From Agaricus subrufescens (lineage: Eukaryota; Basidiomycota; Agaricomycetes; Agaricales; Agaricaceae): a stretch of 64,000 nt of DNA. The notes below the pieces were generated by a model. The model ran no database searches. It was not told the DNA's origin and worked only from the letters and a program-made list of their open reading frames with translations. Where the stretch lies: the NCBI GenBank assembly GCA_029945375.1, contig CM057066.1, positions 1,736,001-1,800,000 of the forward strand. The letters run 5' to 3'. Shown here one piece after another: positions 7,733 to 53,073 of the stretch (position 1 is its first letter; every line of letters starts with the position of its first letter). The translations under genes were made by a program, and so were the position numbers.

Positions 7733-7733
7733 T

Positions 7734-7758
7734 TTCAAACGCAGACACATACGAAAAG
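7734..7758 (+). promoter_or_regulatory. Conserved upstream box of GATase copy A, no TATA
   Basis: The sequence TTCAAACGCAGACACATACG matches the box found before the other array genes (CAAACGnG..CATACAnGA). Unlike copies B, C, D, E and I, no TATA-like word follows at the usual 11-bp spacing, so this promoter is degenerate. Confidence 0.5.
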
Positions 7759-7822
7759 AGGCCACCCTTCACTTTCCTGCCGTTAATTTATCACCCTACT
7801 GCGTTGCTTGGTCATTCCTACT

Positions 7823-8992
7823 ATGTACAGTTCTAGAGTCGTTCGCGCCGCCTTATTCGTCTGTGGTCATTGGTCCGAAAAACTGAAGGGCCTTAATGGC
7901 AATTATCTCAACCTGTACAAGAGATGGTTGAATGCCTCTTTACCGAGAAACTCGGGATACAGGCTTGCCATGGACGCTTACGACGCCCAGAAAGACGAGT
8001 ACCCCGAGGAGAGTCTCATTGATGAGTACGATGTCATTGTAGTCTCTGGATCCCGTAAGTTAGGCTCATTCTTGCTTTAAATGTTGCTCTCTAACGGACT
8101 AATCATCACATTGGCAGCTGAGGATGCATGGTCGAACGTGGAGTGGATCACTAAACTTATAAATTTTATTCGCCACGTCGGTGTCAACCACCCCGAAGTC
8201 AGGATCTTCGGTGCGTTTAGCGTTTAGCCGTATCACAGTCGTTTCAGACTACTTTACATCAGGGGCTTGCTTCGGGCATCAGATAATTAGTCGTTCTTTG
8301 GGTGGCGAGGTTATTCCAAACCCTAACAGATGGGAGGCTGGTCCTACCATCCTGAAAACCACTGCCATGGGTAAATTGCTCTATGGCGTTGACCAAATCG
8401 TAAGTAACGTAACCTTAAATTATGAGGCACTGAATGAGCGAACGTCCACAAATAGAGACTCCAAGAGTTTCATTCAGGCATCGTGCCAATAGAGTCCCTG
8501 GCTGGTCATCTGGCCTCCGGTGAAATTTATCTCCTGGCTCATTCTGATTTGACACCCAACCAAGGAATCGTCAAGTTCTACGACTTCGGACGGCATTCGG
8601 AAAGCCCGGATTTCAAATTAGTCGAATATGTTCATATTTTGACTTGTCAAGGTCATCCGGAATTCGATGAACCCACTGTTACCGAGCTTATTCGTGAACT
8701 TAAAGAGGAAGATAACATTAACGATACAGCATACGTTGGCTATTTTGGTCCGCACGGTACGCCCAGTGATGATGAGCCTATCTCTAAATACATAGGAGTT
8801 GGAAAGAGATGGGAAGCGGATTATGATGGTATTCTTGTCATCGGTAAAACATTCTGGGAGATGTTTGGTGTTGACTATAGTGAGGATGAGAGGATTGTTG
8901 GAAAACCGAAGAGACACGGCAAGCATGCAGGCAAAGTCATAGAAGAGATGAAGAAACCCAATGCCAAGTACCTTCTTCGCGTCTCAACTTAG
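7823..8992 (+). CDS. Class I glutamine amidotransferase-like protein, copy A
   Basis: Four exons: 7823-8054, 8118-8210, 8263-8399 and 8456-8992 (999 nt, 332 residues). The ATG at 7823 aligns with the starts of the other copies. A class I GATase fold is shown by the nucleophile elbow GACFGHQIISRSLGG (Cys111) and the His/Glu motif TCQGHPEFDE, which complete the Cys-His-Glu triad. GASGEIYLLAHSD-like and TPNQGIVKFYDFG blocks lie between them. The arrangement matches the stand-alone GATase1 family that includes yeast YLR126C. Such domains hydrolyse the gamma-amide or gamma-glutamyl bond of glutamine derivatives, but no synthetase partner domain is present. A Lys-rich tail (KPKRHGKHAGK) follows the core. 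No signal peptide is visible, so it is probably cytosolic. It is the first of five head-to-tail copies. Confidence 0.9.
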
Positions 8993-9330
8993 TCGTCACG
9001 TTTCGGATGTAGAATATAGAAGTGTTTTTGTTCTAATTTAATCCGTTGGAAATCTAGGACGCTCTTCCACCGAGAGCACATGTAAATCTACGTGGTGTAC
9101 TGCGGGCTGTGTTTGAGTATCTGTAATGGCACATCCAGATCCAAATAATTGACACATCTCGAATCCAAAACCAAGAAGTTTCTGGTATGTCTGAAGACAT
9201 TGCTCCGGTAGTCGCTCTCTTCCATCCCTGTCCCAACCGGCACCTCAAGATGGTAGACAATCCCGGGATCTACGTAGTGCGTACGTAGTGTCAAAATTTA
9301 GGTCATCGTGATCCTGCTGAACCATTTTAA
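8993..9330. other. Intergenic, no gene seen
   Basis: This is the 3' flank of copy A. Short minus-strand frames at 9054-9294 have no family features. Confidence 0.5.
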
Positions 9331-9404
9331 ACGAGGCTTTTCCTTTTGAGCTACTATATGTGGGAGCGAACAAAGATTTGACAGGATTCAGAGAAGTTGA
9401 CCGA
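9331..9404 (+). promoter_or_regulatory. Orphan copy of the array distal promoter block
   Basis: This segment (GAGGCTTTTCC, then GCGAACAAAG, TGACAGGATTC and AGAGAAGTTGAC) matches the block at 12370-12441, which lies directly before the proximal promoter of copy C. Weaker matches occur before copies H (31540-31570) and I (34091-34143). Here it is about 350 bp upstream of the proximal box of copy B. It may be the leftover promoter of a deleted gene copy or a displaced distal element. Confidence 0.5.
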
Positions 9405-9750
9405 CTTCTTTGGGCCGGATTGCGTTTTGCAGGTTGATTATGTGACGCTCGAGCGCAATCAGTGCTACTATCCTCGGACTAAGATCAACAAAGCTTGAGT
9501 GATTGACAGCCGATATGATGGTGGCGCACTTATAGCGTCCTTTTCATAGCACTAGACTATGCCATTTGTTCCATTACACATGACAATGACGTGGTTCTTC
9601 ACCCAGGGACGCGAGTCTTCGCTTTCATCGTAGAATCTATGTACTTCGTGAGCGGCTAAAGAGTATGTAATTTACGAAACGGTCGAAACCCTACTAACCT
9701 CTAATGGTGAAACGTTGAGCGGCGTTCTGCAAGGTTTATCCTCCGAGTTC

Positions 9751-9788
9751 CAAACGTCAACATACAGGAGGGAAGTCGCCTATAAAAC
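9751..9788 (+). promoter_or_regulatory. Core promoter of GATase copy B
   Basis: CAAACGTCAACATACAGGA is followed, 11 bp after CATACAGGA, by TATAAAA at 9781, which is 58 bp before the ATG. The same box and spacing occur before copies C, D, E and I. Confidence 0.75.
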
Positions 9789-9838
9789 CTCCAGAGCTTT
9801 CCTATCCTTGGTTCGTTACCCCACTATCCTGTCCAGAT

Positions 9839-10981
9839 ATGCCTGCTTCTAGTGCTAGAACCGTTCGTTGCGCTCTATTCGTCAATGACTACTGGACCAA
9901 AAGTCTTCTGGCTCACAATGGAGACTACCTCAACATGTACAGGCGATGGCTGAATGCCTCTTTGCCTAAGAACTCGGGATACTCTCTTGTCATGGATGCC
10001 TATGATACCCAGGACGGAGAGTACCCCCAGAAAGAATATATCGACAACTACGATGTCATGCTACTCACCGGGTCATGTAAGTTGGATTTTGCCTATCACA
10101 AATGCTGTGTGGAGACTAATCAGATTGTCGCGATCTGCAGCTAACGATGCATGGTCTGATGCTCCATGGGTCTGTGAGTTGGTTGATTTCATCGGGAATG
10201 TAATCAAGAACTATCAAACCATCAGACTCTACGGTGGGTCTAGGCATTAGCGTGTGCTCCTGTTGAGTTGTTTCTAATTACTCTACATTAGGTGTATGTT
10301 TCGGTCATCAGATTATCTGCCGTGCTTTGGGTGGCTCTGTTGGCAAGAACCCTGGAGGTTGGGAGATTGGTCCTACAGCTCTCCAAACTACCCCCATGGG
10401 TAGATTGGTCTATGACGCGGAGAAAATTGTAAGTATATTGATCTATCTTTAGAAGAACATTGAACGAGCATTTGATTAACAAACAGGCACTCCAACAATT
10501 CCATCAAGATGCTGTACCAATCGAGTCTTTAGCTGACAAGCTGGCGACTGGTGAACTTTACCTCTTGGCAAGTTCCCCGAAGACAGTGAATCAAGGCATT
10601 GTTAAATTCTACAAATTCGGTCCGCACTCGGAAAGCCCAAGGTTCAAGTACATCGAGTACGCTCATATCTTGACCAGTCAAGGTCACCCGGAATTCGATG
10701 AGGCCACGATGACCGAGCTGATTCGTCAACGTGATGAGAAGAATCACCTTGATGAGGAGGCAGTCACTGGCTACTTCGGTCCCAAGGGCTCTGGTCGTGA
10801 GCACGAGCCTCATACTAGCAAACGTAGACACGGAGCCAGATTCGGTCCCGATTATGATGGTGTCCTTGTGATCGGAAAGGCATTCTGGGAGATGTTTGGT
10901 GTGGACTACAGTGAAGATTCCCGCATTTCACACTTGGCACTGAAACCCAGTGCCCGTGAGCTCTTTCAACTTTTCAACTAG
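9839..10981 (+). CDS. Class I glutamine amidotransferase-like protein, copy B
   Basis: Four exons: 9839-10076, 10141-10233, 10292-10428 and 10487-10981 (963 nt, 320 residues). The nucleophile motif is GVCFGHQIICRALGG (Cys113) and the His/Glu motif is TSQGHPEFDE, so the triad is complete. Exons 2 and 3 have the array-wide lengths of 93 and 137 nt. The N-terminal strand-helix region reads TVRCALFVNDYWTKSLL and LNMYRRWLNASLP, as in its neighbours. It differs mainly at the C-terminus: after LVIGKAFWEMFGVDYSED the Lys-rich tail is replaced by a short end (KPSARELFQLFN), making this the shortest intact plus-strand copy. The function is the same GATase1 chemistry with unknown substrate. Confidence 0.9.
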
Positions 10982-12369
10982 GTGGACTGATTCGGGTCCA
11001 TCTTACGTGGCTTCGGTAAATGTCTGGACTTTGTTCTTTTTGCTTGTTGCTAGTAGTGGATCAGAGTGAAGTATTTGTCGTGCTACTTGTAAGAGTGGAT
11101 AGCGATCTCGTAATATACCAGTGTGTTATCTTGTGATGTTATGACTTCTAGTGTGATAAAGAGTGCATTAAGACTTTGGAGCTGCCAGGTTCGGACTTGA
11201 GCTAAGCTGAGCGACCGGTGACTTGTAGTAAGTCATCCGGAGTAAATATACCAATTTATCCATCGTAAGCCTGGCGGCCGGCGAAATTGACCCTTGGATA
11301 TAGTACTCTCGCTAAACAGTAAAAAATGCTACGCTTAATCCTAAATTAGATAAGACCGACCTGCCTTAAACAGCGCTCAGGCTAGATTCTGTGCAAAAAA
11401 TTCTAGAATATAGAGATTTTACTAACCTCTATTAGTTTTCTGGAAGGTGTTCGCTCGCATAAGTCAGATTGTACAATTTGCCCACTGGGTGCTCGGGGTG
11501 TCCTGGGCACTATGTTCCATGGCAAACCTACCGAACAACTATGATATTGAGAATGCTTGGCAATGTATTCTTGGACTCGGCGTAAATTTCATACAGTAAA
11601 TACGGAAGGCCCGGAAGCATCGCCCTCCTTTGCTATGACACCTCCGGGTCTCCTGAACCGATGATATCCGCCACGGACCAGCCGAGTAACTGTTGTGGCG
11701 ATGGTGTGACGTTCAGCTTGACACTGTCACATAACCCCTAACACTAGAACCACTTACTCCACTCTGACGGTAAAAACACTCAGAGCACCCAGATAACGTA
11801 CTGACAGGTCTGCATGCAAGTGAGTATTGATTGCACAGAGATACAATTGCTGCCTAATGAACAGATAAAAACTTTCTTGTAGGACGGACCAAACCAACGT
11901 ATGGTTCGATAAAATGACATAAAAGACTTCATTCTTGCTCAGAGCATATCCGTAAGTAAAGTAGGCGGATGATAAATGGCGCCACTTCTGAATCTCACAG
12001 AATGGTACACGACATGCTCAATGCTTCTAAGTTTATCCGGCGGGTTTCATGGACTAGCTGATCGAAGCACTGGATAGTCCACATTCTTCACCACCCGACC
12101 CGGGCGAAAGTTGTGACGCTGTGCTTCGCGCAAACCGTTGACCCAGTGTTTCACGATCATATCTGTATCGTATATTGCCTGCCGGGATAATCCTTTTGGT
12201 TTCCAGCAAAGAAGAAGCGACATTTTCGTGTCTGCAGCAAAAATTTTGTTAGTACTATGTCCTTCTCGGTCGATTCGCTATCAAGATACAGCAGACGACT
12301 ATTCCATGATGTTCCTGGTTTCTGGTCTTGGCCAGATATACCACATCCACATTCCAGCGGTCTCAGTGC
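10982..12369. other. Intergenic, 1.4 kb, no gene seen
   Basis: Low-coding spacer between copies B and C. Overlapping short frames at 12138-12547 on both strands look like chance. A word resembling the distal block (ATTCCAGCGGTCTC) is at 12350-12365. Confidence 0.5.
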
Positions 12370-12516
12370 TAGGCCTTTTCTGATGAGGACTTTTCTTATC
12401 TGGAAGCGAACGAGGCCTGACAGGACACAGAGAAGTTGAGCTATCCCTCCGGTGCCTTCGGCGGCGTTTATTTCCTTGCAAACTCGAGCATACATGAAAG
12501 GAACGACCTATAAAAG
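12370..12516 (+). promoter_or_regulatory. Promoter of GATase copy C: distal block, proximal box, TATA
   Basis: The distal block (12370-12441) includes GCGAACGAGG, CTGACAGGAC and AGAGAAGTTGAGC. The proximal box TTGCAAACTCGAGCATACAT ends with CATACATGA at 12489-12497. TATAAAAG follows 11 bp later at 12509, which is 53 bp before the ATG. Confidence 0.75.
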
Positions 12517-12561
12517 CACAGCTGCTTGCTTGCTTCAGATTCATCACCTACCTGCCTAATC

Positions 12562-13749
12562 ATGCCTGCTAACGGTGCAAGAGTCGTTCGCGTCGCTCTA
12601 TTCGTCAATGGTGTTTGGACCAAAAAACTGCTCGAGCTCAATGGCGACTATCTCAACATGTACAGGAGGTGGTTGTTAGCCTCCCTGCCGAAACATTCGG
12701 GAATTAAACTCATCATGGATGCCTACAACCCCAAGAATGGCGAATATCCCCAGGAAAGTCTCGTCGACGAATACGACGTCGTTATGATTTCGGGTTCCCG
12801 TAAGTTGGATTGTTTTTCACGTCAAAATTCTCATCGGAAGTTCATCATCCACTATTGTAGCTGATGACGCATGGTCGGACGAAGAATGGGTTGTTAAGCT
12901 CGTTGATTTCATTCGCAATGTTGGTATCAATCATCCCGAAGTCAGACTTTTCGGTGGGCTTGATATTCAGTATCATATTGTACTCGCTTCTGATTGTTTG
13001 ACATCAGGTGTATGCTTTGGGCATCAGATTATCTGCCGCTCTCTGGGTGGCAAAGTTGGACGGAACCCAAATGCATGGGAGCTTGGTCCTACTCACGTGA
13101 AGACCACCGCTATGGGCAAGTTGCTCTATGGTGTTGACCATTTAGTAAGTAACTTATTCTGGATTCGACTGGCGGTATTGAATGAAAAAAATAGGGACTC
13201 CAAGAATTCCACCAGGATGTCGTCTATCTGGATTCTCTCAATGACCACCTGGCATCCGGTGAAATCTACCTCTTGGCTAATTCCGAAATTACACCCAATC
13301 AAGGAATCGTCAAGTTCTACGATTTCGACCGCAAGTCAGAGAACCCCGATTTCAAATTGGTCGAAAACGTGCATATCTTGACCAGTCAAGGGCATCCAGA
13401 GTTCGATGAGCCTACCACCACCGAACTCATCCACCAACGTAATGAGAAGAATCATATCAACGATACTGCATACGCAGGCTACTTCGGCCCTCATGGTCCT
13501 AAGGGCGACGAAGAGCCTCTCGCTAAACATGGAACTGGAAAGAGGTGGGGAGCTGATTATGATGGTGTCCTCGTCATCGGCAAAACGTTCTGGGAGATGT
13601 TTGGTGTGGATTATAGTCAGGATGAGAGAATTGCGCCGAAGCCGAAGAAACATGGAACGGATGCAGGCAAGATCGTTGAGCCGAAGAAGCCTAGCGCCAA
13701 ATATCTCCTTGACATTAACGTCCTCGACAGGTTCCATCTTGCGATTTAG
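12562..13749 (+). CDS. Class I glutamine amidotransferase-like protein, copy C
   Basis: Four exons: 12562-12799, 12861-12953, 13008-13144 and 13195-13749 (1023 nt, 340 residues). The nucleophile motif is GVCFGHQIICRSLGG (Cys113), and the His and Glu lie in TSQGHPEFDE. The copy is nearly identical to copy D at the N-terminus, sharing ARVVRVALFVNG and the block TKKLLELNGDYLNMYRRW, and both have FHQDVVYLDSL. C and D are therefore the most recent duplicates. The Lys-rich tail (KPKKHGTDAGK, VEPKKPSAKYLL) is present. Expected to be a soluble amidase or glutaminase-type enzyme; the substrate is not known. Confidence 0.9.
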
Positions 13750-15420
13750 TTCATGTATTTCCGACGAATCTATAAATGTATCCGTCCTAGCGGACGAACG
13801 AGAATAAATCGAATGTTGTATTTGAAGCTTAAAGTTTAGCGTGCCTGTTTTGTGAAAGTTGAACTTTCTGTACTCCGTGGCTATTTCTACTTCTGACACT
13901 TCCTTTTGTGATTCGTTATCTTGTGGGCTTAGACCCGGTGAGTCGAATTCGGCTGAGGTAGCTTCTTGAGTAATGCCAACCGTTCACTAAAGACGAACCA
14001 TGCCAGTCAACGATAGGACTGAGACTCGGCCGCTTTTGATTAATCCGGGGCTTTTTTGCATCTGACTTACAGCGGTATCGGGCTTTGGCTCTGGTATTCT
14101 CTAAGGTATTCAAGCAGAGCGATCTTAATTTGGTATCAAATGATTAGATCATAGAATAGTTGTACGGCTAGAACAAAAATATGATTGTGCTACAGTCGAA
14201 ACATATTTCTTTCTTTTTGGCCTTGATTACTGGTTCAGAGAGCAACTGAGAGCCCGCTAGAATCCGCTTCTTGAAAGCATTGGCACTCCAACTTTCCCTG
14301 CCTGGAAGGTCACTCATACAGGCGCTGAACGGCAAATAGATACAGTCTAATTGGCTATTCGTTGTTGTATGGGCCACAATTGGCATTGGGACTACGTGAT
14401 GTCACATTGCATTCCCACACAGAGCGAATCAGAAATTTACCAGAAAAGAAGGCCCACACGCTGGAATTCCTTGTGCGCTGTTCGACTGGTTCATACCTAT
14501 TCCACCATTTCGGATGCACTAGAAACCCACATTTTTCCATCGTTTTTGGCGGAGAATTATGATTCAACACCTGTGACAACACGATATGTTGACTTGGGCA
14601 AGATGCATGATGCATTATGATTGGTAATGGACCGGATCTGGATCTGAGGCTCTGCAGTGTTACGCGCAAACTCCGACCATGTCTCCTTCGGCAACCGTAC
14701 TGTTACTCGAACGGCACTTAGACAGGTTTGAATGTAGCCTGTAAGTAAGTGTCAAAAAGCTATCGGAAGAGAATTGGCTCAATTTGAACCCGAAAACAAG
14801 GAATACAATTTTTTCTGGAACGGATACGATCAACAGTTGACTTGACAAACAGAAAGGCGATAGACGATCTTATCCTTTCTCGGTCTGTAACGACAAGACG
14901 TGCAGGGCCCTCATAAGATTTGACAGTTTTCTGTGTTACAGGGGTTTCGAAACTCAGGCTTCCATCAACGGGATTGGTTGAGTGGAACGTTGGGCAGTTC
15001 ATGTCCCTTACAAGTTGACGTTATCGAAAGTTAATGTGAAGATCAGAAATTTTACGTTCAAATGAAAAGAAACTATGATTGGTCTCGCGTGAAGCATTCC
15101 GGGTTACTCAACCAGGGAGTGAGTGGAATATTAATGGTTTGACGATCATACACTTAGCCGTCGCTTCCCTTGAACGAGATAGCTTTGGAGTTGGTCGCCC
15201 GGTCTATAATGGATCTCATGACCATTGCGCGTTTGTTGTTCCGCTTTTGGGGTGAGCGAAGGCGCCAATATTGCAATCATCATCTCGAACAATCATTCCG
15301 GCTGTCTCGCGATCTAGATAATATCGCGCACTGTCCGCATATGCAGCGCCTTCCATTCAAGTCATCGAAGCCATATGACGAGGCTTTCCCATGTGCAGGA
15401 ACGTATGAGGCACCGACAAG
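13750..15420. other. Intergenic, 1.7 kb, no gene seen
   Basis: Several frames of 60-104 codons occur on both strands but have no recognisable domain and overlap each other. At 15286-15310 the distal word AATCATTCCGGCTGTCTCG matches one before copy A. Confidence 0.5.
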
Positions 15421-15480
15421 ATAACGGGACGTGGATACACCGTAAGCCCCTCGTAGCGCTCGGCAAAGTTTATTCTCCTT

Positions 15481-15519
15481 GCAAACTCGGGCATACACGA
15501 ACGGAGCCACCTATAAAAG
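15481..15519 (+). promoter_or_regulatory. Core promoter of GATase copy D
   Basis: GCAAACTCGGGCATACACGA is followed, exactly 11 bp after CATACACGA, by TATAAAAG at 15512, which is 63 bp before the ATG. The preceding TTTATTCTCCTT also matches the segment before copies C and H. Confidence 0.78.
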
Positions 15520-15574
15520 CAGCAGTGTCTGCTTGCTCCTAATTCATCACATATCTGCATTACCTTGCTTAACC

Positions 15575-16776
15575 ATGCCTGCTAACTCCGGTGCCAGAGT
15601 CGTTCGCGTCGCTCTCTTCGTCAATGGTATCTGGACCAAAAAACTGCTCGAGCTCAATGGCGACTATCTCAACATGTACAGGAGATGGTTGAATGCCTCT
15701 CTCCCAAAACACTCTGGATATAGGCTCGTCATGGATGCTTATAACTCCAAGGAGGGCGAATACCCCGAGGAGGGTCTCATCGACGAGTACGACGTCATTA
15801 TGCTCTCAGGTTCCCGTAAGTTAGATTTTTTCTTGTCCGAAACTTCCATTAGAAATTAATTAATCACCATTGTAGCTGAGGATGCCTGGTCGGACGAGCC
15901 TTGGGTCGTTAAGCTTGTCGATTTCATTCGCCATGTCGGTATCAACCACCCCGAAGTCCGATTGTTCGGTACGTCTAATCTTTAGCCCCGTACCATAGTC
16001 ATTGCTAACCACTCTGCATCAGGTGTATGCTTCGGGCATCAGATCATAGGTCGCTCTTTGGGTGGTAAAGTAGGCCGAAACCCTAATCAATGGGAGCTTG
16101 GTCCTACTTTGCTCAAGACCACCGCCATGGGTAAATTGCTCTATGGTGTCGACCGCATAGTAAGCCACAATATACATTCCTAAGCAACAGCGTTGATTGA
16201 GCGAACGTCACCAAATAGGGACTCCAAGAATTCCACCAAGATGTTGTCTATCTAGATTCCCTCAATGATCATCTGGCATCTGGCGAAATCTATCTTTTGG
16301 CCCATTCCGATATAACACCCAATCAAGGGATCGTCAAGTTCTATGACTTCGGCAGGAGATCGGAGAACCCCGATTTCAAGCTGGTCGAATATGTCCATAT
16401 TTTGACCAGTCAAGGACACCCAGAATTTGATGAGCCAACCACGACTGAGCTCATCCACCAGCGTAATGAAAAGAACCACATCAATGATACCGCATTCGCT
16501 GGCTACTTCGGCAATCGCGGCCTTGACCACGAACATGAACCCATCTCCAAACATGGAACTGGAAAGAGGTGGGGAGCTGATTACGATGGTGTTCTTGTGA
16601 TCGGCAAGACGTTCTGGGAGATGTTCGGCGTCGACTATGCTGAGGATGAGCGTATTGTGGCGAAGCCGAAGAAACATGGGAAGCATGCAGGCAAGACTGT
16701 TGGTGAACCAAAGAAACCCAGTGCCAAATTCCTCATGGACAACCACCTTGTCCAGGCCGGTCATGTTCCAGCCTAA
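15575..16776 (+). CDS. Class I glutamine amidotransferase-like protein, copy D
   Basis: Four exons: 15575-15815, 15876-15968, 16023-16159 and 16219-16776 (1029 nt, 342 residues). This is the longest copy and a good reference for the family. In order it shows VVRVALFVNGIWTKKLL (first strand), YDVIMLSGSPEDAW spanning intron 1, NHPEVRLFGVCFGHQIIG with Cys114 spanning intron 2, TPNQGIVKFYDFG, and TSQGHPEFDE with the His and Glu. It ends with LVIGKTFWEMFGVDY and the tail KPKKHGKHAGK. All triad residues are present. Promoter and protein sequence pair it with copy C. Probably cytosolic; activity unassigned beyond gamma-glutamyl or glutamine amide hydrolysis. Confidence 0.92.
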
Positions 16777-18536
16777 TTTTGTGCTAGATACTTGCTTGAC
16801 GTCGACTTTTAGCTTAGTTGATTAATTATGGATGTAGGCGATATCATGAATTTGGTATGTTACATGTGATAGCTGGTATATGGAGAACGAATAATAAAAA
16901 AACGTCATGTTTGAGGCGAAAAGCATAAAATATCATCCCTACAAAATTGAGACAAAGGTAGGAGCCAAGAGGATACGCGGTTCGTTAACAATTTCTTGAC
17001 CTGTGCCATCCATCAATCAATATTAACAAATGAGGCCGTTATGATTTAATCAATAAGTTTCGGGTCTTGCTTGCACCGACATGACTACGTTCAAGATCGC
17101 ATCCTTGGCACGCCGGCTTTAATCTTCGCGCTATTTACGATAAATATACTCGTAATGGTGTAGGTTCGGCATCACTATTGGCGGATAACACCAACTGCCA
17201 TTGTTTTTCACCTTTTTTACAGCTGCTAGTCTCGATATTCACAAGGCCAATGTTCGCCACAACCTGATGGAGCACCGATCAAGCGAGTATCCTAGTATCT
17301 TTTTTCCGTTCTGGATGTAAGTGTAAGGATCAGGGAGGCACCTATCCGAGATTCTACAAGCGTTAGTCTTAGCTTGTTATAGATCATGGAATAGTATAAT
17401 TCATGCTTTCAATCAAAACAATGCTTTTCGCCTTTATTACCCCACTCTGAAGGAAAGTATCTACTCGCACTACGTCCTGTGGGACGTTCTTCCGACTAAC
17501 TACCCAATACGAGTTTCTACCAAATTCCATCAAATTCTCCGGTTGACTTATGTTGCGGCTGCGTCTTATTGGGTGACAATGATGGGATTCACGGATTCCA
17601 ATGATGGTATCACGGTTGAATCAAGAACCCTGTCTTCAATATGTATGGGTGTCGACTCGGATAATTTGAAGGAACGAATTGAGCTACAATTGGTTGTTTC
17701 TGTTCCGTTCTTGCCCCGACGGATATCGAGATTCAACCCAGAGACGCTCGAGTCGGCTCGATGTCACACTGGCGAATCAAGCAGCGAACACTCTGCAGCT
17801 CCTTGATCGAATTGACACTTGCTGGACGGGATAAATGCTTCAGAATCGGTACTGGTTAACCGCCGCATCGATTTGATCGCGGTGGCGAATATTATCTGTT
17901 CAAAGAGGCGGTGATGTAACTTGACAGCACTAGTGATATTCCTTACTTTAGAAGACCGCTATTTCCTGCACCTAGAACCGAAGATGATGATACTCTCTGA
18001 GGTCGACGGCCTTCGTACTTGACTTCGCCCTGTCACAGGAAATAGAAACGGCGCCACGGACACACTTCGGTCTACTTGACTGGGTGCACGGACCAAAGAA
18101 GAGGCAGTGTATATTGGTTGACATTTAAGTTGAAATCGTGGAAATGTATTTATTGAAACGGGAAAGAAGCCGTACGGTTTCGAGAAGCATCTGTTGAACA
18201 GTCATTGCGGGGTTGAGCAAGAGATGTCGGAGTTTTGGAGTCCATAACAGACGTTTTGACAAGTTGACAACTACTATGTTGTTCACGATCGAGTTTATAT
18301 TGAGCAAGCCGAGATACCGATAATCACTAGGATGGAGCGTCACAACCAACTCTCGTACTATCAGCGCGCCCCCTGTCATCAACCTTTCAATAATGGAAGT
18401 CAGGCTAGGCGATATCCGACGCGCCTTTCCCTATGCAGGAACAAACTTCCAAGTGTCCTGGGATACCGAGAAGCCCCCTCAGTTCCATCTACCTGCCACA
18501 AAACTTTCCCGCCCCCCCGCAAAGAATAATTCCTAT
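16777..18536. other. Intergenic, 1.8 kb, no gene seen
   Basis: Spacer between copies D and E. The frame 17543-17806 (plus) and the frame 18125-18382 (minus) have no recognisable features. Confidence 0.5.
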
Positions 18537-18573
18537 ACAAACGTGAGCATACACGACAGGAGCCATCTATAAG
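18537..18573 (+). promoter_or_regulatory. Core promoter of GATase copy E
   Basis: ACAAACGTGAGCATACACGA is followed by TATAAG at 18568, again 11 bp after CATACACGA and 52 bp before the ATG. The promoter is preserved even though the protein has lost its catalytic Cys. Confidence 0.72.
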
Positions 18574-18619
18574 ATCACTTTTCCAATACTGGATCATCAC
18601 CTAAGTGTCCTGGCCACTC

Positions 18620-19814: not shown

Positions 19815-19871
19815 TATACTTATTTGTATTCAACATGTATAAGCGAATCGACGGACTTTCTGTATTACATT

Positions 19872-24017: not shown

Positions 24018-26121
24018 AGACTCAACTCGGAAGCAATGGCTCCGAATGCCACATGGGAGTAGTATCGTGGGAAAGTAACTGTCAAATAAACTCCCATATA
24101 TATATACCACGCGAAACCTTGGTCCCCCACAAGTTCTAACTATTACCCCTCCCACTGCTGATCGGTTTTCAAACAAATATCCAGTTCCATTCCGTAGGCA
24201 AAGCACGGCATTTTGATCTCCCCTGATTTTTGCACTTTGTTTTTTTTCCCGCGAATTAATCAAAGAACACGATATTGGTTTCGATCGAAAGCATGATCCA
24301 TGTTAGTCCAGAGCATTCGTGCCTAACCGCTCCTGCTCTACATTGGAGTCAATAGTTGCTCTCGAGGCAACCACGATTCTGTAACCACGTTCCGTATACT
24401 CGCTGGTGGAAAAACGATTGTACCACACATTCCACTAATCATCAGGCATACTATGTTTGGAATAGTTTGGAATGAGAACGATCATTCTTTCTGATCTCAA
24501 AACTTGCCTGCCCGGTTATGATAAACGAATGCCCTCTGCAAGCCGACCATTCAAGTGTTCTTGATATACGTATGCTCAGAACATCAGAATGGCGTGGGGG
24601 ATTCAACGATTGACCCCGGGGTAGAGCCTGTAAGACTTTTTCACAACCACTGCCATTGTTTCTTGGTGATGCCCGAGGCGAAATTATATTGAGTCACTGA
24701 ATCCCATTCAAATCTTGCCAGGGGATAACCGTCTAAGTCGAAAATGCAAGCCGCAGCAAAGCCTGATGATGTACCAAGATCGGGTCAAAAAAATACACAC
24801 GTCAAAGTAGAACGTCTTGCTCGGTGAGTTAAAATAGCTGGCCGATGAGACCATTGTACTTTTAATAAACACCGCCTGAATTAGTGATTGACTATTACGA
24901 AGAAGAAGAAGAAGGTTTGAATTCAAGAAGAAGCAGCATGAGACCCTCAACACAATCTAAATCCTGATATGATATCATTTATCAATAGTTGAACCCTGAC
25001 TCTCACAATCACAAAGGGTATACACTTTACCCCTATTTCCATGATTCTAGCTGCGGAGTCGCCTGTGGCCCGATACTCGATCGCACAACTACAACGCAAT
25101 ACAACTTGATTCGGAATGCATTGAAGCTAGAACGTGGTATTCGTCCATCAGTGGCGCAAATACCAGGCTATCCGAGGCGATAAGAAGAGGCTCAGCTTGC
25201 TCTAGAGATGGTCACGAAAGCCGAGGATGCTGCGGCGGTTCTTCAATGAGAAGTGAGAGGATGAGAGGAAGAACCAACTTCTCATAAGTATATGCCTTCG
25301 ACAGTCTGGGTAGAGTCGTGTAAGCTTACAAGTTGGAAGTTTGATAGTCATACGACTTGTTATTCATAAGAGTCGGATATAACAGAAGCTCCAGTGGAGG
25401 CGAGGTGATGGAGTGGTGCTCCGTTGAAGTTAACCAAACACCAACATTTTAGGTGCGCCGCATAAATATTCAATTAGCCGAGAGGAATAACAATTGCACA
25501 ATGCAGTGACCTTCGTAATTCCCAGTCGGCAATGCTCTAACAACGATAACTGGAGAGAGTACACCAGGTACCAGGCACTCTTACCCCGACAGCCTCAGGA
25601 GATACTCCATTGAACTGACCAACGGCATATCATGCTCAAGAGCCCATTCAGGTTTTGGCTTTAACTTCTTTAGGAACCACTTTTTTTTAGCGAACCGATA
25701 CATAGAGCACGGATCAATTCCATGGCAAACGCTAAGAGTCGTAGCCGACAAGTCAACGTGCCTATCTGCGAGCCGATCAAAGGCTATGAGAATGTAGCGA
25801 GTAGATTATGTATATGATCCAGCAATAATGTCCGGTCAGTAGCCACAATAATTAGTAAAAGTAAGCAAAGAAGCCCTTAAGGTAACAAGTATCTATCAAC
25901 TACAATCATAGAAGTCCCAGTAAAGCAACAGGAGCTGTTCGAAAAAGGAGCGAACTGAGCGCGCATGGACTGAGAGTCCAAGCGGGCAAATATAGCCTAT
26001 ATGGGTCATTGAGATCAGTATACTGCGGTGTATTAGCCGTGTGGAACTTACGGAGGCAATAAACACTCCGACTGCCTGTCTGAAGGCTTCCCAAGTCACC
26101 GCATTGACGAGGTGACCTTAA
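24018..26121. other. Intergenic, 2.1 kb, no gene seen
   Basis: No supported gene. A short GAA repeat (reading AGAAGAAGAAGAAGG) is at 24900-24915. Frames at 25896-26099 overlap each other and are probably chance. Confidence 0.5.
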
Positions 26122-26556
26122 CTATAGGTCCATGAAGAGGCCCCGGACGCCGTCGCCGGCGTCTTTGGCGAAACGTAGCCACTGCCAGAAATACAGGCTA
26201 CCACCACCACCATCCTGTCCCCATATATAGTACACCGCGCGGTGATGCATGACATCAAGATGATGCGGCAAGTACTTGAATAGGGCTATCACTATCAGAA
26301 CGCATGTAAAAACCAGGATAGACACTATTGAAAACAATTAATCAATATAAGACATTCCATCAACAAACAGGAAATGCTCACGTAGCAAAAACTTTTCCCA
26401 AGGTTCCAACAGGGTTAACACGAATGTACTCTCGAACCACATGCGTTGCCGCCAGAGAAACATCCTGATACCGGATGTGTCCTTCGTCGGAGCCCTTGTG
26501 GCACGTAGGTCGGGCTTAGGGGCGGGGAGGACACGGGGGACCGGTAGCGTAGCCAT
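26122..26556 (-). CDS. Serine palmitoyltransferase small subunit homologue
   Basis: Two exons on the minus strand, 26556-26382 and 26324-26122, joined over a 57-nt intron (378 nt, 125 residues). The core reads WFESTFVLTLLEPWEKFLL, then LSILVFTCVLIVIALFKYLP and HHL. This matches the animal ssSPT proteins, whose signature is a hydrophobic helix followed by LEPWE and a second helix ending in MPQHI. Small subunits bind the two large SPT subunits in the endoplasmic reticulum and stimulate the first step of sphingolipid synthesis (serine plus palmitoyl-CoA). The ATG at 26556 gives a short Pro-rich cytosolic N-terminus. An upstream in-frame extension to 26856 is rich in His, Cys and Pro and is probably untranslated. 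The tail after the second helix ends DGVRGLFMDL. Confidence 0.82.
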
Positions 26557-28364
26557 GAGAGGGTAAGCAGTTCGGAAAAAAAGAGAGGGGATTTTATATG
26601 GCCAAGAGTCGTGGGAGGAGCGGAGCAGTGGGTGCGGAGGGAGAGGGCGAGCGGGGGGGAGCGAGGATGCTCTGATTCTGAATCCGCAATGTGAAATATG
26701 ATGATGCCAGTTGTACTCACATCCGTTATGGCAACTCGTTTCCACGCCCACCAGATGCCTTGGCACTTTACGTACCTGCCAACAGGCTTGACTGTTCATA
26801 TCCATATGTCCATCATCTTCCCGGCTTGCGTCTGTTTGGTGATCGCTAGCCGACATGGTATATTAATTGATAGGGAGCAAAGAACCGCAGAACGTGCGAT
26901 GGAGATAGTTCACCCGGGTTGCAAGATCCCACGAACGATCTGCATAAGACATGCACAAGCCTCCTTGGAGCCAGGATTTAATCATTCAAGGAACTTGGAG
27001 TCTTTCGCTCTCTTTATTCGGGACTTGACAAACACCAGGCTTCCATTCCGAATATATATGGGTGGCAGTCGATTGACAAAGGCCGCAGCAGTGATTAGGT
27101 TCATTTAATAGGCCACTGAGTACCTGAGACCTCGAAATTTAAGAACCTTGAAAACATGGGATCTCGGACGCTCTGAAGAACTATACACCATCGCTGCTTG
27201 AAAGGGCAGAAGAGGTGCGTAAATTTATAGGTTCCTTCATAACTCACAGAGGCTCAACGGCGGAAGTTGAGGTTCAGCCCAACTTACCCCTTTCGATAAC
27301 TCATTTGACTTTTAATTAATCCAAGGAAACCTTCTTGTCCCAAAGACCAAGCTATTCTCGTCTCAAAGGCTGCACTATTTTTGCCCTAAAAAAATTAGAC
27401 TCTCCATTCGTCCCTTCATTCATTCATACTTGCGCTTCTCCAGCCACGATGAAACCAAACCCCACCAAAAAAAACAAAAAGAATCTCATACCACTATCCT
27501 ACCCAAAAAAGGAACACAAACCAATACATCAAACCTCCAACCTTACAACCCTGCACAGTACGTAACACCAACCCCAATGACAGATCTTCTCCCAAAGAAG
27601 ATTTTCGGCTGGTTTGTGGGGAGGGGTGTGGTCATAATTGGGTCACCGCAGTCAGGGTGCAAACGGCCTTGCATCAACGTCTGGTTCAAACTCCACCAAA
27701 ACCAGACTCCATTGATCAATAAATATCTGTCTACCTGTGGCTCCTTCCAGCCGACGTTCACCCGAGAATCACGCAGCCCACCACCACCTGTGATTGAACT
27801 TTATAAAATAAAAGGAGCTATAACCTGTTTGGAGCAGGGAGGCACATAGAAGAGGGTTGGAGTCGCTCGGGTACTGTTTCCGGCTTTTATCATTCAAGAA
27901 AATTCGAGGGTAAATGCCCTATCGGCTTCTTTCCATTCTTTTTTCTATAAAGCGTAAAGTTCATAAACTAGTAACGATATTACCTCAAATCACTCAGGTG
28001 GGCTGATCAGGAAGAAAGAGAAAAAAAAAATTGTGTTGGCAAGGTGATGCGAACGCCAAGGTTAGTCAATATATAAGTGGTACAAGGTACTATGTGCCAA
28101 GTGTATCTTGTATGCTCCAAGTGATCCGATTAAAGCCCTGTCTGATAACCCATCTCATCTGACTGACGAGCACAAGCGTCAGTTTGATCGCAGGGAGCCA
28201 ATGACCGGTTACCACCTCTCGTACACAAAACACACCAAATCACTGTCTATTCCAAGAAGCGAATATACAACCATGTACACGACGTCCTCTAATCCACAGT
28301 CTAGTCCAAGAACAAAAATACAACCACACACACAACGTCCTTCTAATCCACAACAGCCCCTCTC
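26557..28364. other. Intergenic, 1.8 kb, no gene seen
   Basis: Contains the ssSPT promoter and the 3' flank of the membrane protein gene. The 139-codon plus frame at 27430-27849 is rich in Lys, Thr and Pro, has no domain and overlaps another frame; I do not call it. Confidence 0.5.
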
Positions 28365-30955
28365 CTACTTCTCAACTTCCTCACTAGATCCAGAATACAC
28401 CCCCTCACCATGTTTCCCAGCCTTCTCAACCCCCATCTCCTTCACATGCCGTCTCTTCACAATCCCCAACAAGAAAACACCATACCAAACTGTTAATATC
28501 CCAAGCACCAATCCCGTCCCACCAGTCACTGAGATCGTTATAATCGACGTAGTATTAAATTCACCATGTTGCACTCCGTAAACATTTACAAGAGTTGAGA
28601 TAACGCCTGCAAGGGCATTCATAAAACCGGGACTAGAAGAAGCGTGCTCAAAAGCCAGACAACAGAAGGGGAAAGGGAAAACGTTTTGCTCACAGAAAGA
28701 TTTTGTTAACGAGCCAAATATAATTCTTCATCCATTTCCACCACAGGTAACCCATTCCGATGATACCAATACCTGTACAAGCAAACGCAACAATAAACCT
28801 AAACACCGCGGGGTGTGAGTATCAAAAATAAATTAGAACCACCATCGCAAGGGAGAATGAAAAAAAAAAAATAACCCGCTTACACTGGTAGATTCACAAT
28901 CCTATTGACCAACGAAGCACCAAACCCATTCCCCAAATCGAGCGTCTCCAAACTCGTAAACGTACCAGGAAACAAGACAAATCCAGCCAACAAAATCCAA
29001 GTAAAGAACGAAGCAGCAAGATCGTACAATGTTGGAATATCATCCAACGCAAGAAGCATATTCATATACTGCGACCGAGACGAAGGCGGTATCTTGTTAT
29101 ACTCTGCTTTCTCTTCCGCAACGGTATGCAGTAACCTCGAAGGAAGGCGCTTTAATGGTGCTGTAAAACCGTCATCAGGGGCAGAAGATGATTTCGGAAG
29201 TGAGGGCAGCTCAGAGGAACAAGATAATTTGCCGGGTTGAGATTGAGACGAAAGACGGTGTTTGAGAGGTCCAGACGTTGTCCCCAATTGCACTGTAGAA
29301 CTATGAAACTGAACCTGCGTTGTCTGCGCGTCGTCTCCATCTCGCGCTAAAGTTTTTGCGACAGGCCTATGAGAGTCTTCTTTCATTTGCTCATTGGGGT
29401 CGACCAACGCTTTAAGCGGCGCTTTAGTATCGCTTGATTCCAAAACGTTGACATTCTGATGATCATGGGGGGTGGCACTAGCCTCCGCTGCATTCTCTCC
29501 AAGCACGTGTTTCGCTTGTTGTACCGACGCTTCAGGAGCAGGCTGAGGTGCTACCTGTTTCGTGTTACGGCTAGGGACGATGGTCCTGACAGGTCTTGTT
29601 TCTGACTTGACAACCATATTTGTACTAGCATCCGGTTCAGATGCCGCGGCAACGTGGGTCTCGGGAGGATGAATTGCGTCTTTGCCTTTGTCTAATGGCG
29701 GAGAAGGTGAAGCGAGTCGTGAAGAATGTATGCTGGAATCCAGAGACTTGCGCATAGGTAATTCCATTGAGGATTTGGAGCCAGGAGGTGTGGGAGCAGC
29801 TGCACCAGAAGGTATACGGAGATATGGTGAACTACGTGGATGTTTCGAAAATCCAATTGATCTGCTTGATGTACCTCCTGTGCCTTTGTACCCCTGACTA
29901 TAACGCGATGGGGAGTAAGGATACGAAGAAGAAAGAGGCCGGTGTGTAGGAAAATACGATGATCCCGGGTTTGGAAGCGTGGAATATGTGGAGGGCTGGG
30001 GAAGTGTTGCAGATCTTTGAGGGAGAGGTTCAAATTGTAAGTTTGTTCCAGGTATCAAAGAAGGTTTCGATGGCTCAGGCATTGACGGGAATATCGAACC
30101 TTGAACTTGTGCAGCCTCGAGCAAATGACTGTAATCCGGAGAGGGGAACGCTGGAAACGATGCTGCTGCTTCTTGACTATTTCGCGATCCAGTTGTAGGG
30201 GGAGCATGCGTGGTATCATGCAGAAGCGACGAATTGGGTTGAACGTCTGGCAAAGGGAAGTCCGGACCGGTACCGGACGAGGCTAGCATCGTGTCAACGG
30301 ATGGTGTATGGCCCTCGAACAACCCAACGCTAACAGGCGACGCCACATTTGTAGTAGACCGACGACGATTCTGACGGTCGAGCGGCGTCTGAGTCGCAGT
30401 TGGCTGCCGCGTAGAGACACCATCGCCAGATTCCTCCATCGTCGAGTAGAACTTGTATAGTTCTGAGGGGTGAAAATCGCCCGCTCCTAAAGTTCCAGTT
30501 GCACTGCGTTCGAGACTTTCGTGGCGTAAGGCTCCTGCGACGAATGGTTTGGCATTATCATTCTCGTTGTTGTATTCTGCGGATACACGCAGCGGCGACG
30601 ATGGCGCAGAGGCATAGAGTAGGTCAGAGTCGCTGAAGCCACTGGAAGTCCGATTGCCCTCGTCGAGACTGGTTCTGGGTAGACGAGCTCCAGTGTTTGC
30701 TAAAGAGTGTGGAGGAGGGCCAGACGGAGGTCCATCCTCTGCGGATTCTGCCCCAGCAGGGTATTGAAGCAATGGTAGAGTAGGTGGCAAGGAAATTAGG
30801 GGTCGCGGTTGAAGAAGAGTGGGGCCAGCCGAGAGTGACCCCGAGGCATAAGAAGGACTGTGTGCTCTCGGCAGCGAGAAATTCTGAGTTTGAATGGGCG
30901 ATGGCGGCGACGACGAGCGCCCGTCGTCGACTGGAGGAGTTCCTGACCCTGACAT
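28365..30955 (-). CDS. Ser/Pro-rich protein with four C-terminal membrane helices
   Basis: Three exons on the minus strand: 30955-28884, 28798-28694 and 28632-28365 (2445 nt, 814 residues). The first 600 or so residues are low-complexity, rich in Ser, Pro, Thr and Gln, and likely disordered and cytosolic. The C-terminal 200 residues begin with SQYMNMLLALDDIPTLYDL. Four hydrophobic segments follow: LAASFFTWILLAGFVLFPG, FIVAFACTGIGIIGMGYLWW, a weaker one around GFMNALAGVISTLVNVYGV, and ISVTGGTGLVLGILTVWYG. The tail is KRRHVKEMGVEKAG. The helix region, especially the ALDDIP and SFFTWILLAGFVLFPGTF segments, looks like a fungal membrane protein family with no assigned function. Both introns fall within or next to helix segments and keep the frame. 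I cannot assign a role. Confidence 0.8.
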
Positions 30956-31539
30956 TACTGGTCAAGGATTGCGCTGGCCACTATCAGACCCACCCACTCC
31001 CAGTATGCCATTGCGCGGATCAGGGGCAGCCATTGCCGTATATATATCTTATCCAGATCACTCGGCTTCAAACACGTGCATAGTCTACCAATCCACTACT
31101 AGTAGTAGTACGAAATCGAACGAGATTTTTCAAGACTATTCGCACTGCCAAGTTAGACGAATTGGTGGATTTTTCTACTACATAAAGTGTACATAAATTG
31201 ACCTTTCTCTACAGGTGTGTCATCTGAGTCCTAATCACTGCGCTAGCTACTGTCCATTCTCAATAGGAAACAGTAGAAAATGAGAGTAAGCCCGACTTCC
31301 AATTGTATTTGACTCGATGTATGTACTAAACTAGAGAAACAGGACTTCTTAAGCGTAGCGCAATTGGTCAACATTGAGCAGGAGTAGTAGCTGTAGTAGT
31401 GAAGTTGGCGTTTCCACGGACTTTTCTGAAGCATTCGCTCACGAGATATTTTAGGACATCCTGTGTCTTAGGCCCTTTTCTTTCCTGGCATCAATGTTTG
31501 ACATCTGGACAGAACGTTGGGTTTTGGGAAAAGATCTTG
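30956..31539. other. Intergenic, no gene seen
   Basis: Divergent spacer between the membrane protein gene and copy H. It should hold the membrane protein promoter. Confidence 0.5.
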
Positions 31540-31660
31540 GCGCGAACAAGGTATTGACAGAACACTCAGGAATCGGCCAGCGCGGCGCACCGTTCATAGC
31601 AGCGTCTGGCAAGATTTATTCCCCTTGCAAGCGAGCACATACACGGATAGGCTCTAGAAA
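31540..31660 (+). promoter_or_regulatory. Degenerate promoter of GATase copy H
   Basis: GCGAACAAGG and TGACAGAACAC (31540-31566) match the distal block. TTATTCCCCTTGCAAGCGAG and CATACACGG (31638-31646) match the proximal box. At the TATA position only TAGAAAA (31655) is present, with spacing about 3 bp short. The loss fits the broken coding region downstream. Confidence 0.6.
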
Positions 31661-31710
31661 ATTGCCATAGTTATCATGCTTTCAGCTCATCGCTCCAGCG
31701 TCGCCTAATC

Positions 31711-32889
31711 ATGTCTCTTCATGCCTCCAGAACCGTTCGCGCTGCTCTTTTCGTCTGTGACTATTGGACCAAAAAGCTTTTGTTATACATTGGCGACTAT
31801 CTCAATATGTATAGGAGATGGTTGAATGCCTCGCTCCCCGAGCATTTGGGATATAAGCTCATCATAGACGCCTACGATGCCCAGAATCAAGAAAAGCCTG
31901 AGGAGGGCCTTATTGACAATTACGACGTTATCTTGGTCTCTGGATCGTGTAAGTAGGATTGTGTATGATTTCAAGTTTTCTATTAACGACTAAATAATCA
32001 CTATTTTCAGCTAATGATGCTTGGTCTGATGCAGAATGGGTTGTTAATCTTGTGAGTTTTATCAGGGAAGTTGCTATCAATCACCCAGAGGTCAGACTTT
32101 TCGGTGGGTCTAGTTTTTGGCGTGTGCTCGTACTATTGACGTTTCTCATTCATTTACAACAGGAGTTTGCTTCGGGCACCAGATTATTAGCCGTGCTTTG
32201 GGAGGCGACGTCGGAAAGAACCCGGGCGGTTGGGAGGTCGGACGTCCTATTGTTAAGACTACCCCAATCGGCAGATTGGTCTACGGTGTGGACAAAATAG
32301 TAAGTATTATGACCCCATTTAAGATGACAGCATTGAACTGGAGTTTATCCGCTACAGGCAATTCGAGAATTCTACCAAGACGGCGTACCACTTGATTCTA
32401 TGGCTGGCCACTTCGCGTCTGGTTAAATTTACCTCTTGGGACATTCCGATAACTCCGAATCAAGGTATCGTCAAATTCTATCTATTGGGCCCGAATTCGA
32501 AAAATCTGAGCTTCAAATCAGTCGAACATGTTCATATCTTGACCAGTCAAGGACATCCAGAATTCGATGAACGCACTATGACCGAGCTTATTCGTCAACG
32601 TGACGAGAAGAGCACCATTGATAAAGAGGTAGCCAGTGGTTACTTTGGTCCATACGGTGCTGAACAGGAGCGTGAGCCTGTCTCTGAACACGGAGCTGGA
32701 AAGAGGTGGGGAGCTGACTATGACGGTGTCCTTGTGATTGGTAAAACCGTCTGGGAGATATTTGGGGTGGATTATAGTGAGGATACAAGGGTTATGGCAA
32801 AGCCGAAGAAACACGGGAAGCTGGCCGGCAAAGTCGTTGGTGAACCCAAGAAACCCAACTCCAACTTCCTCATGCAGCAAGCTGACTAG
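31711..32889 (+). pseudogene. GATase1 copy H, broken by a stop codon and a frameshift
   Basis: Exons 31711-31948, 32011-32103 and 32163-32299 are intact and in frame, with GVCFGHQIISRALGG (Cys113). Exon 4 starts at 32358 in the correct frame (AIREFYQDGVPLDSMAGHFASG) but then reads TAA near 32424, where other copies have GAA (Glu) before IYLL. About 25 nt later, at CATTCCGATAACT, the homologous frame shifts. ITPNQGIVKFYLLG, TSQGHPEFDE and the Lys-rich tail continue in the other frame to 32889. Everything else, including His and Glu, is preserved, so inactivation looks recent. The promoter has also lost its TATA box. A truncated product of about 178 residues lacking the His and Glu would be inactive. 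Confidence 0.85.
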
Positions 32890-34090
32890 TAAGTTTTGGT
32901 GGAGCAGAGGCTTACCACACAGACAATGTTAGCATACTAGGTCTGGAAGCTGAGTAGTTTGGTCATCTCGTCTTGACTGTGGGCTTGTCGATAAATTTCT
33001 TGTTTGTTGTATTTCGGAGAGTAGATGCGCATGAGCTCAACATTTCCCTGAGCGCTTTAGTCTCCCATGCTCTCGGCAACACCACTATGGCCCCACTATC
33101 TCCAGTCGACTTCACAGTGGAAGTATCTATTTTCCGCTTCACGAGCCGAGACTATTTGTGTCGCTTTTTGGGTGCTGCCCCTGTATGACGATGGAATCTT
33201 TCGATTAGGTCTGCTTTCGCATCGTCATAACATAGGTATGTATGTCAAGAGCCCAAGAAGATGTAATTTTATCGTCAAAAATGACGTTCGAGGACCGTAC
33301 AAGGATAGTCTTCTAGTATCAGACATCTATTCTGCAACCCCTTGCTTGTTACATCTTGACAGATACCTCGGAATCGTAGCCACATGTGGATCACGGGTTC
33401 AAGTATTACGCAAAGTTACGATACTTACTCACGTACTATGTATTGTAGGAGTAGAGAAGTATCGAAAACCACTGCAAACTCCACATTTTGAAGCACAATT
33501 AGCTCTTCTTTTTGTTCCGGGAAGCACATGAGAGTGCTTCAATTCAACGAAGAGCCACAAAGTTTTATTTTTCCTTCCCGTAGCGGTAGGAAAATCTGCG
33601 ATATACCATTGTGTCATCAAAATGTCAGGCGCTGAATATTGTTCACATGGCTTCTTCCCTGGGAGGAAGATAAGAAATAGGAATGTTTAAGTTAGACAAG
33701 CATCGAAGTCTGTTTGACGGGTTGCATAGACAGAAATAGCAAATTTTCTTCAGCAGGTCACGTTCGTTGATGTTTTGTGGAGGCTGGAGACCTTCGGGAA
33801 GGCAACAACTAAGGCGTGGGACTCTCCTTTTGACTGCCAGTACGCCCTGAGCCTTTGTTTTTCAAGGAGAATGTGTGGTAAACATATTTCAAGTTCATAT
33901 AACGGGTTTTCCGGCCATCAGTCCGTTCGTGTTCCTGACCCAGTAAATGAAGGTGACGATGCTAAAATCATTCTCGGAGATGGGCAAACTATTCGGTTCA
34001 CAAACGACTTCTCGTGGCATTTGTGTCTACATCTGGTCCTCACTATCAACATTTGGGTCATCCAACTTGGGCTAGGCCATTCCAGGTGAT
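32890..34090. other. Intergenic, 1.2 kb, no gene seen
   Basis: Open frames at 33067-33531 and 33775-34089 (plus) have no recognisable features. I see no remnant of a further GATase copy here. Confidence 0.5.
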
Positions 34091-34228
34091 ATTTCTCCTT
34101 TTTCAAACAAGTTCTTACTGACAGGAAACTGAGAAGTCCACCGTGACCTATCCACGTTGGCACTCCATCCGGCAATGTTTTATCCCAGTGCAAACGCGAA
34201 CATACATGAAATGAGAGGCCTATAAAAC
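34091..34228 (+). promoter_or_regulatory. Promoter of GATase copy I
   Basis: The distal block (CAAACAAG, then ACTGACAGGA and TGAGAAGTCCACC) lies at 34105-34143. The proximal box GTGCAAACGCGAACATACATGA ends at 34209, and TATAAAA starts at 34221, again exactly 11 bp later and 58 bp before the ATG. Confidence 0.75.
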
Positions 34229-34278
34229 CACTATGCCTCCCTTGCCTTGAGTTCAACACCGAGGTGTGCTATCTCATC

Positions 34279-35463
34279 ATGTCTTCCTCTACTTCTAGGA
34301 TAGTCCGCTGTGCTCTATTCGTCTGTGGCTATTGGACCAAAAAGCTTCTGGAAATAAATGGCGACTATCTCCATATGTACAGGAAATGGTTGAATGCCTC
34401 CTTGCCGAGAGACTCTGGATATAGGCTCATCATGGATGCCTACGATGCCCAAAGTGGAGAACAACCCGAAGAGGGCCTCATTGATAACTACGACGTCGTC
34501 TTGATCTCAGGGTCGCGTTAGTAGAATAGTTCCCCCTATGATGTTTCGCGTTGGAAACTGATTAATCACCACTTACAGCTGAGGACGCCTGGTCATCTGC
34601 TGAGTGGGTTGTTAAACTTGTCGATTTTACCAAGGATGTCGCCATCAATCATCCAGACGTTAGGCTTGTCGGTGAGTCTTTTCTTTCGCCCTCGATAAAG
34701 TCACTTCTATTTAATTCCGGTGCATCAGGTATTTGCTTCGGACATCAGATTATCTGTCGTGCCTTGGGAGGAGAGGTCGGCAGAAACCCTAACGGATGGG
34801 AGGTTGGTCCTACTCTACTCAAAACCACCCACGTGGGCAGGTTGCTCTACGGGGTCAACAAAATAGTAAGTATTTTAACCTTTCACCAGGTGATAGCATT
34901 GAACTGACAGTTTTGTTGACAAATAGGCACTCCAAGAACTTCATCAAGATGCTGTTCCTCTTTCTTCCTTGGCTGACCATCTGGCAGCTGGTGAAATTTA
35001 CCTTCTGGCACAATCCGATTTGTGCCCGAATCAGGGTATTGTTAAATTCTATCCACTGGGCCCAAATTCGGAAAATCCGAGTTTCAAATGGATCGAATAT
35101 GTTCACATTTTGACCAGTCAAGGACATCCGGAGTGCAATGAACGCTCTCTGACCGAGATTATTCGTCAACGTGACGAGAAGGATGCCATTGATAAAAATG
35201 CAGTCAATGGTTATTTCGGTCCTCGTGGTGCCGAGAGTGAATCCGAACCTATCTCTAAACATGGAACTGGAAAGAGGTGGAGAGAAGATTATGATGGTGT
35301 TCTTGTGATCGGCAAGTCGTTCTGGGAAATATTTGGGGTGGATTATAGTGAAGATCAGCGGATTGTGGCGAAGCCGAAGAGACACGGGAAGGATGCAGGC
35401 AAAGTTGTTGGTGAACCGAAGAAACCTAACTCCAACTATCTCATACAGCAAGGCACCGCTTAG
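34279..35463 (+). CDS. Class I glutamine amidotransferase-like protein, copy I
   Basis: Four exons: 34279-34516, 34579-34671, 34729-34865 and 34927-35463 (1005 nt, 334 residues). The triad is complete: GICFGHQIICRALGG (Cys113) and TSQGHPECNE. Intron 1 uses a GTTAGT donor. It pairs most closely with copy H (shared PEEGLIDNYDV, PLGPNSENPSFK versus LLGPNSKNLSFK, and EHGAGKRWGADY versus KHGTGKRWREDY). H and I thus form a second duplicate pair on the far side of the two unrelated genes. The tail is the standard Lys-rich type (KPKRHGKDAGK, EPKKPNSNYL). Confidence 0.9.
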
Positions 35464-35663
35464 CTGTTTCGTTTTAAGCTTATAGTAGTCCATGTGCCCC
35501 ATCTGTTGTATTTTAGCAAATGAGAGAGGTGTTTGCACCTTATATTCGGGGTGGGTTTACCTGAGATGTCGTACCTACAATATTTTCCCCGTGCTAGAAG
35601 AAATTTTTGAGGTAGATCCTGTGCCTCTAGGTCTATAAGATTACGAAGTTATTGCCTGACCTA

Positions 35664-53055: not shown

Positions 53056-53073
53056 CTGTTCAGGCAAAGTAAG

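Follow-up and report, generated by a model that had tools for sequence, protein, structure and literature searches.

Stand-alone class I glutamine amidotransferase-like genes arrayed in Agaricus subrufescens and their likeness to plant gamma-glutamyl peptidases

Why does a mushroom carry, side by side, nine copies of a gene for a stand-alone class I glutamine amidotransferase (GATase)-like protein, when stand-alone genes of the yeast YLR126C type are, to our knowledge, usually single copy? The question is raised by a 64-kb stretch of the Agaricus subrufescens genome (C10:1736001-1800000, hereafter the window) in an assembly of 44.65 Mb and 44 contigs. An earlier reading of the window, made from the sequence alone, had described an array of nine such genes and proposed it as a candidate for an undescribed system. 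The analyses reported here identified nine copies, seven of which are open, and on balance favor the view that their proteins are cytosolic gamma-glutamyl peptidases (GGPs) of the Arabidopsis GGP1 type.

Gene copies of the array and their enzyme family

With eight family proteins as queries, a tblastn search of the window identified nine family blocks and none further. Blocks A to E were on the forward strand (7814-8989, 9833-10957, 12562-13740, 15575-16773 and 18620-19811), F and G on the reverse strand (20031-20947 and 22995-24017), and H and I on the forward strand (31705-32883 and 34273-35460), which bears out the order of five direct, two inverted and two direct copies given by the sequence-only reading. 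The open copies all have four exons: A (7823..8992, +, 332 residues, motif GACFGHQ), B (9839..10981, +, 320 residues), C (12562..13749, +, 340 residues), D (15575..16776, +, 342 residues, one of the queries), E (18620..19814, +, 336 residues), G (22992..24017, -, 290 residues) and I (34279..35463, +, 334 residues). Copy G is divergent, with 38-46% identity to the other open window copies. The remaining two copies are broken. Copy F (20031..20947, -) is a remnant with frame lesions and stops, in which the catalytic Cys and His have been replaced by Gly and Arg, respectively. Copy H (31711..32889, +) has a 2-nt frame lesion and an in-frame stop in exon 4; the lesion is also present in a second copy of H in the assembly and the stop is unique to the H of the window. 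The description of nine copies as genes consequently stood for the seven open ones and not for F and H, and one of the seven, E, has Ser in place of the nucleophile Cys (GISFGHQ).

Genome-wide modelling of the family gave four exons in all 30 gene models, from which F was left out because it is broken. Exon lengths were free to vary in this modelling (84-105 nt for exon 2 and 125-149 nt for exon 3), having been preset in earlier models. All 30 models had an exon 2 of 93 nt, and all but one had an exon 3 of 137 nt, the exception being the model at C7:255603 with 138 nt. The same two lengths had been claimed for the window and were found in its eight copies other than F, and the common four-exon plan supports the earlier proposal that all copies descend from one intron-containing gene.

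The protein of copy D matched PF00117 as its sole Pfam family at E <= 1, so that its class I glutaminase domain stands alone, and the same search identified neither a gamma-glutamyltransferase (GGT) domain nor a fused synthetase domain. The nearest solved structure was that of Arabidopsis GGP1 (PDB 9k7i, 9k7j, 9k7k and 9k7l), which outranked other class I glutaminases by a clear margin in sequence profile, Foldseek and structural alignment, the fold compared being that of the Agaricus bisporus protein P0001. A shared fold with plant gamma-glutamyl peptidases had been suggested before, together with a role in processing gamma-glutamyl compounds such as glutathione conjugates or arylhydrazines; this result agrees with the former and lends support to the idea of a gamma-glutamyl peptidase. 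The mushroom proteins and GGP1 have in common the stand-alone class I glutaminase fold and the Cys-His-Glu motifs: the catalytic Cys was present in 28 of the 30 models, the two carrying Ser being E and its second copy, and the His-Glu pair (HPE) was present in all 30. The gene models begin approximately ten residues ahead of the first strand.

The two kinds of protein differ in that their identity is about 20% and in that the mushroom clade has an additional loop that precedes the last helix, together with a basic tail, both of which are also found in the A. bisporus proteins P0001-P0003. The loop and tail would likewise distinguish the array members from the fungal class I GATase-like proteins of the YLR126C type, which belong to the same PF00117 family. 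There are five GGP genes in Arabidopsis, whereas the mushroom family has more than 20 loci in one genome. The yeast glutathione-degrading enzymes Dug2p/Dug3p, Ecm38p (GGT) and Gcg1p (ChaC) belong to other protein families; D matches PF00117 alone. Their likeness to the array proteins would be in their action on gamma-glutamyl bonds, since they cleave that bond in glutathione or gamma-Glu dipeptides, according to a passage in PMC7617739.

Family loci in the genome and their relationships

Exon-level searches, whose counts are lower bounds, identified at least 33 family loci in the assembly. The window and a second array account for nine each, five inverted ones lie upstream at C10:1713-1727 kb, and the other ten are dispersed. 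The dispersed loci comprised one on C11, five relatives of copy B on C10 and C2 (C10:2065928, 2150621, 2362508 and 2439368; C2:3652186), C10:1542566, one on C28 and two on C7. Two pairs of the B-like loci were approximately 97-98% identical over about 3 kb. The array of nine loci is, in other words, real and only part of the family.

The offset between the two arrays, which share a scaffold, is about 105.7 kb. Window positions 6439..48600 have a near-identical copy from C10:1848146 onward, and for the eight loci compared the identity over the main piece was 96.4-99.86%. The copy was followed at least to window position 48600; probes of its right end landed in dispersed repeats, and a DNA search of window 37000-56900 listed short repeats only and missed the second copy, so that its silence is uninformative. 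A gap of 100 N (C10:1848046-1848145; L040:2047-2146) stands immediately before the copy. Elsewhere in the assembly, the C28 locus is 97.9% identical to C10:1542566, and C6 has five glutathione transferase (GST) matches that are repeated, with the same scores, at a distance of 588,720 bp. Based on the gap, the C28 pair and the repeated C6 matches, we interpret the second array as probably the other, unmerged haplotype and C28 as an unmerged haplotype of the C10:1542566 type; the gap itself is likely a scaffolding or haplotype artefact of the assembly. A genuine duplication of at least 42 kb, which would make all 33 loci separate genes, could account for the position on the same scaffold, for the real differences between the two copies and for an 832-bp insertion present in one copy only. 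We consider it rather unlikely, as the second array starts directly behind the gap and the other near-identical pairs also suggest unmerged haplotypes. The count of 33 separate genes was set aside because of the position of the gap, and the likely number of non-allelic loci is 23, or 21 if the two B-like pairs are also allelic.

The insertion, at window 36254-37085 and missing from the second array, has ends that are inverted repeats (CATCAGCAAA.../...TTTGCTGATG) and is flanked by repeated TG, features by which it resembles a small DNA transposon. Many contigs carry short, near-identical pieces, and tRNA and Rfam scans around 36254-37085 gave no match.

The closest named proteins to D were from A. 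bisporus (69% identity), followed by Leucocoprinus (51%). In a midpoint-rooted tree of 44 proteins, from which F and C7:2534124 were left out and in which H was represented by an imperfect model, 18 loci of this genome formed one clade (support 98/92) apart from A. bisporus P0001-P0003. The clade has 21 rows, made up of the 18 loci, the second copies of E and H, and a metagenome protein (P0004); Leucocoprinus, G, C7:255603 and the C10:1542566 type fell outside it. Judged from this tree, the expansion of the family is lineage-specific relative to the A. bisporus proteins compared, three sequences from a database clustered at 90% whose true number may be higher, and the expansion implied by the sequence-only reading is to that extent supported.

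Four other metagenome proteins (P0081, P0086, P0090 and P0092) resembled particular paralogues by inspection, which suggests that the paralogue types predate this one species. Synonymous divergence (dS) in the measurable pairs within the window was 0.85 for C-D, 1.21 for A-D and 1.54 for E-D, values which indicate that C, A, E and D are not fresh copies. The ratio of nonsynonymous to synonymous divergence (dN/dS) was 0.03-0.24 in 19 of 22 chosen pairs, at dS of 0.15-2.6, the three others being saturated; at the level of coding sequence, these ratios show that the copies have been under purifying selection. A family profile retrieved 909 relatives, with many fungal groups among the matches listed. 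Because relatives were found across fungi, the unusual part of this locus would be the copy number and the common promoter, not the gene itself.

A promoter pattern common to many copies

Upstream of many copies is a block consisting of TTGCAAACnCGAACATACA, a spacer of approximately 14 nt and CTATAAAA, situated approximately 50-60 nt ahead of the start codon. When 15 upstream regions were aligned, among them that of the second copy of H, this stretch was the best conserved. The pattern CAAACNNNNRYAYACAN{10,17}TATAWR had 21 matches at 19 places in the whole assembly, four of these places being in the second array. At each of the 19 places a family model follows, with its start codon 46-57 nt beyond the end of the pattern; the backward control had no match. 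A TATA-free form, with one mismatch at most, gave 13 matches, all in the same promoters, and one match in the backward control. As the pattern was derived from family promoters, its presence there is by construction, and the informative part is that neither form matched outside the family anywhere in the genome, which gives no sign of a wider regulon.

Within the window the pattern was found on the forward strand ahead of B (9751..9786), C (12479..12514), D (15482..15517), E (18538..18573) and I (34191..34226). Copy A has a degenerate form with no TATA match. The exact pattern was missing from A, H and G and the second copy of each, from the second copy of D, and from the loci at C10:1725 kb, C10:1542566, C28 and C7:255603. 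It has been kept in the dispersed B-like copies although their alignments with B reach no farther upstream than the start codon. The pattern-bearing copies may therefore be under common regulation. By eye, several copies, namely C, I and those at C10:1713, 1717, 1720 and 1722 kb, also have a second conserved block, approximately TGACAGGA...GAGAAGTC, upstream of the main element.

An open frame of 691 codons, an unrelated gene, lies inside the array between G and H (window 28883-30955, -) and had no Pfam match at 0.01. Among ten long neighboring open reading frames, Pfam identified one class II tRNA synthetase core and one SPT_ssu-like match below cut-off, with none in the other eight; no synthetase partner for a glutaminase was found among them, although intron-split genes could hide some.

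Proposed function and alternatives

If the proteins are GGP1-type peptidases, the Cys of the GxCFGHQ motif would attack the gamma-glutamyl amide with the assistance of the His-Glu pair of QGHPE, a gamma-glutamyl thioester would form on the Cys, and water would then free glutamate, leaving a shortened conjugate or amine. The copies may in this way trim glutathione S-conjugates of aromatic compounds, with the common promoter design letting many copies respond together and sequence drift among them widening the substrate range. Glutathione S-conjugates would be the likeliest substrate and agaritine-type hydrazides the main alternative. Loss of GGP1/GGP3 in Arabidopsis leads to the accumulation of glutathione conjugates, as stated in part of PMC11449216, and a passage in PMC5442256 describes beta-etherases and heme-thiolate peroxidases as expanded in A. 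bisporus and suited to humic-rich habitats. Matches to GST_C_7, a domain which we take to mark beta-etherase-like transferases, number 30 in the present genome, and tandem arrays at C6:660-692 kb, C6:1272-1281 kb and C8:2519-2527 kb hold many of them.

Several points weigh against this assignment. A nearest solved structure is no proof of substrate, the identity to GGP1 is about 20%, and the loop and basic tail are outside the coverage of the GGP1 profile and in a region where model confidence is low. The exact promoter pattern is missing in 11 of the 30 models. The GST_C_7 count covers this genome alone. The array could also have arisen neutrally through tandem and inverted duplication, with most of its copies heading to loss, as two of nine broken copies and one with no nucleophile would suggest; the dN/dS values of the 19 pairs and the retention of the promoter element where the B-like alignments begin only at the start codon make this improbable.

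Other activities can be considered for the same proteins. The clade may hydrolyze or transfer the gamma-glutamyl group of agaritine-type arylhydrazides, and would then represent the old gamma-glutamyltransferase activity of the button mushroom. Agaritine is a gamma-glutamyl arylhydrazide of Agaricaceae and a button-mushroom enzyme frees glutamate from it, according to an excerpt of PMC7472412; A. bisporus proteins fall within the family group, and GGP1-type chemistry passes through a gamma-glutamyl enzyme, as worded in the title of PDB 9k7l. We regard this reading as doubtful, since none of the results connects agaritine with any member of the family, and a true gamma-glutamyl transpeptidase may be the source of the known activity. 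That the copies are plain glutaminases or ammonia donors with a broad or housekeeping role, multiplied with no link to conjugates, would fit the Pfam and NCBIfam matches, which are to generic class I amidotransferases. It seems improbable given that the protein stands alone and that GGP1 was far ahead of all synthetase-linked glutaminases by both profile and fold. Least probable, in our opinion, is that the clade is the missing family of gamma-glutamyl aryl chemistry in mushrooms, with GGP-type cysteine enzymes that both make and break agaritine-like gamma-glutamyl hydrazides and amides and that have multiplied in this species to form a co-regulated bank of specificities with a private promoter element and with E as a regulatory pseudoenzyme.

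We found no mushroom gene array of this kind among the titles and abstract openings listed from open-licence papers. The array is unusual and its promoter design private to the family; the enzyme kind itself is known, and in place of the undescribed system that had been proposed we see an enlarged branch of that kind. Fungi conjugate glutathione to aromatics, and the functions of their glutathione transferases were largely elusive according to a 2013 review (PMC3815920). A bank of GGP-type genes would be a concrete candidate for dismantling glutathione conjugates in mushrooms, and cleavage of agaritine by the same clade would bear on food safety. Together, the array and its private promoter may offer a natural case in which duplicated enzymes drift in sequence while the promoter design stays common.

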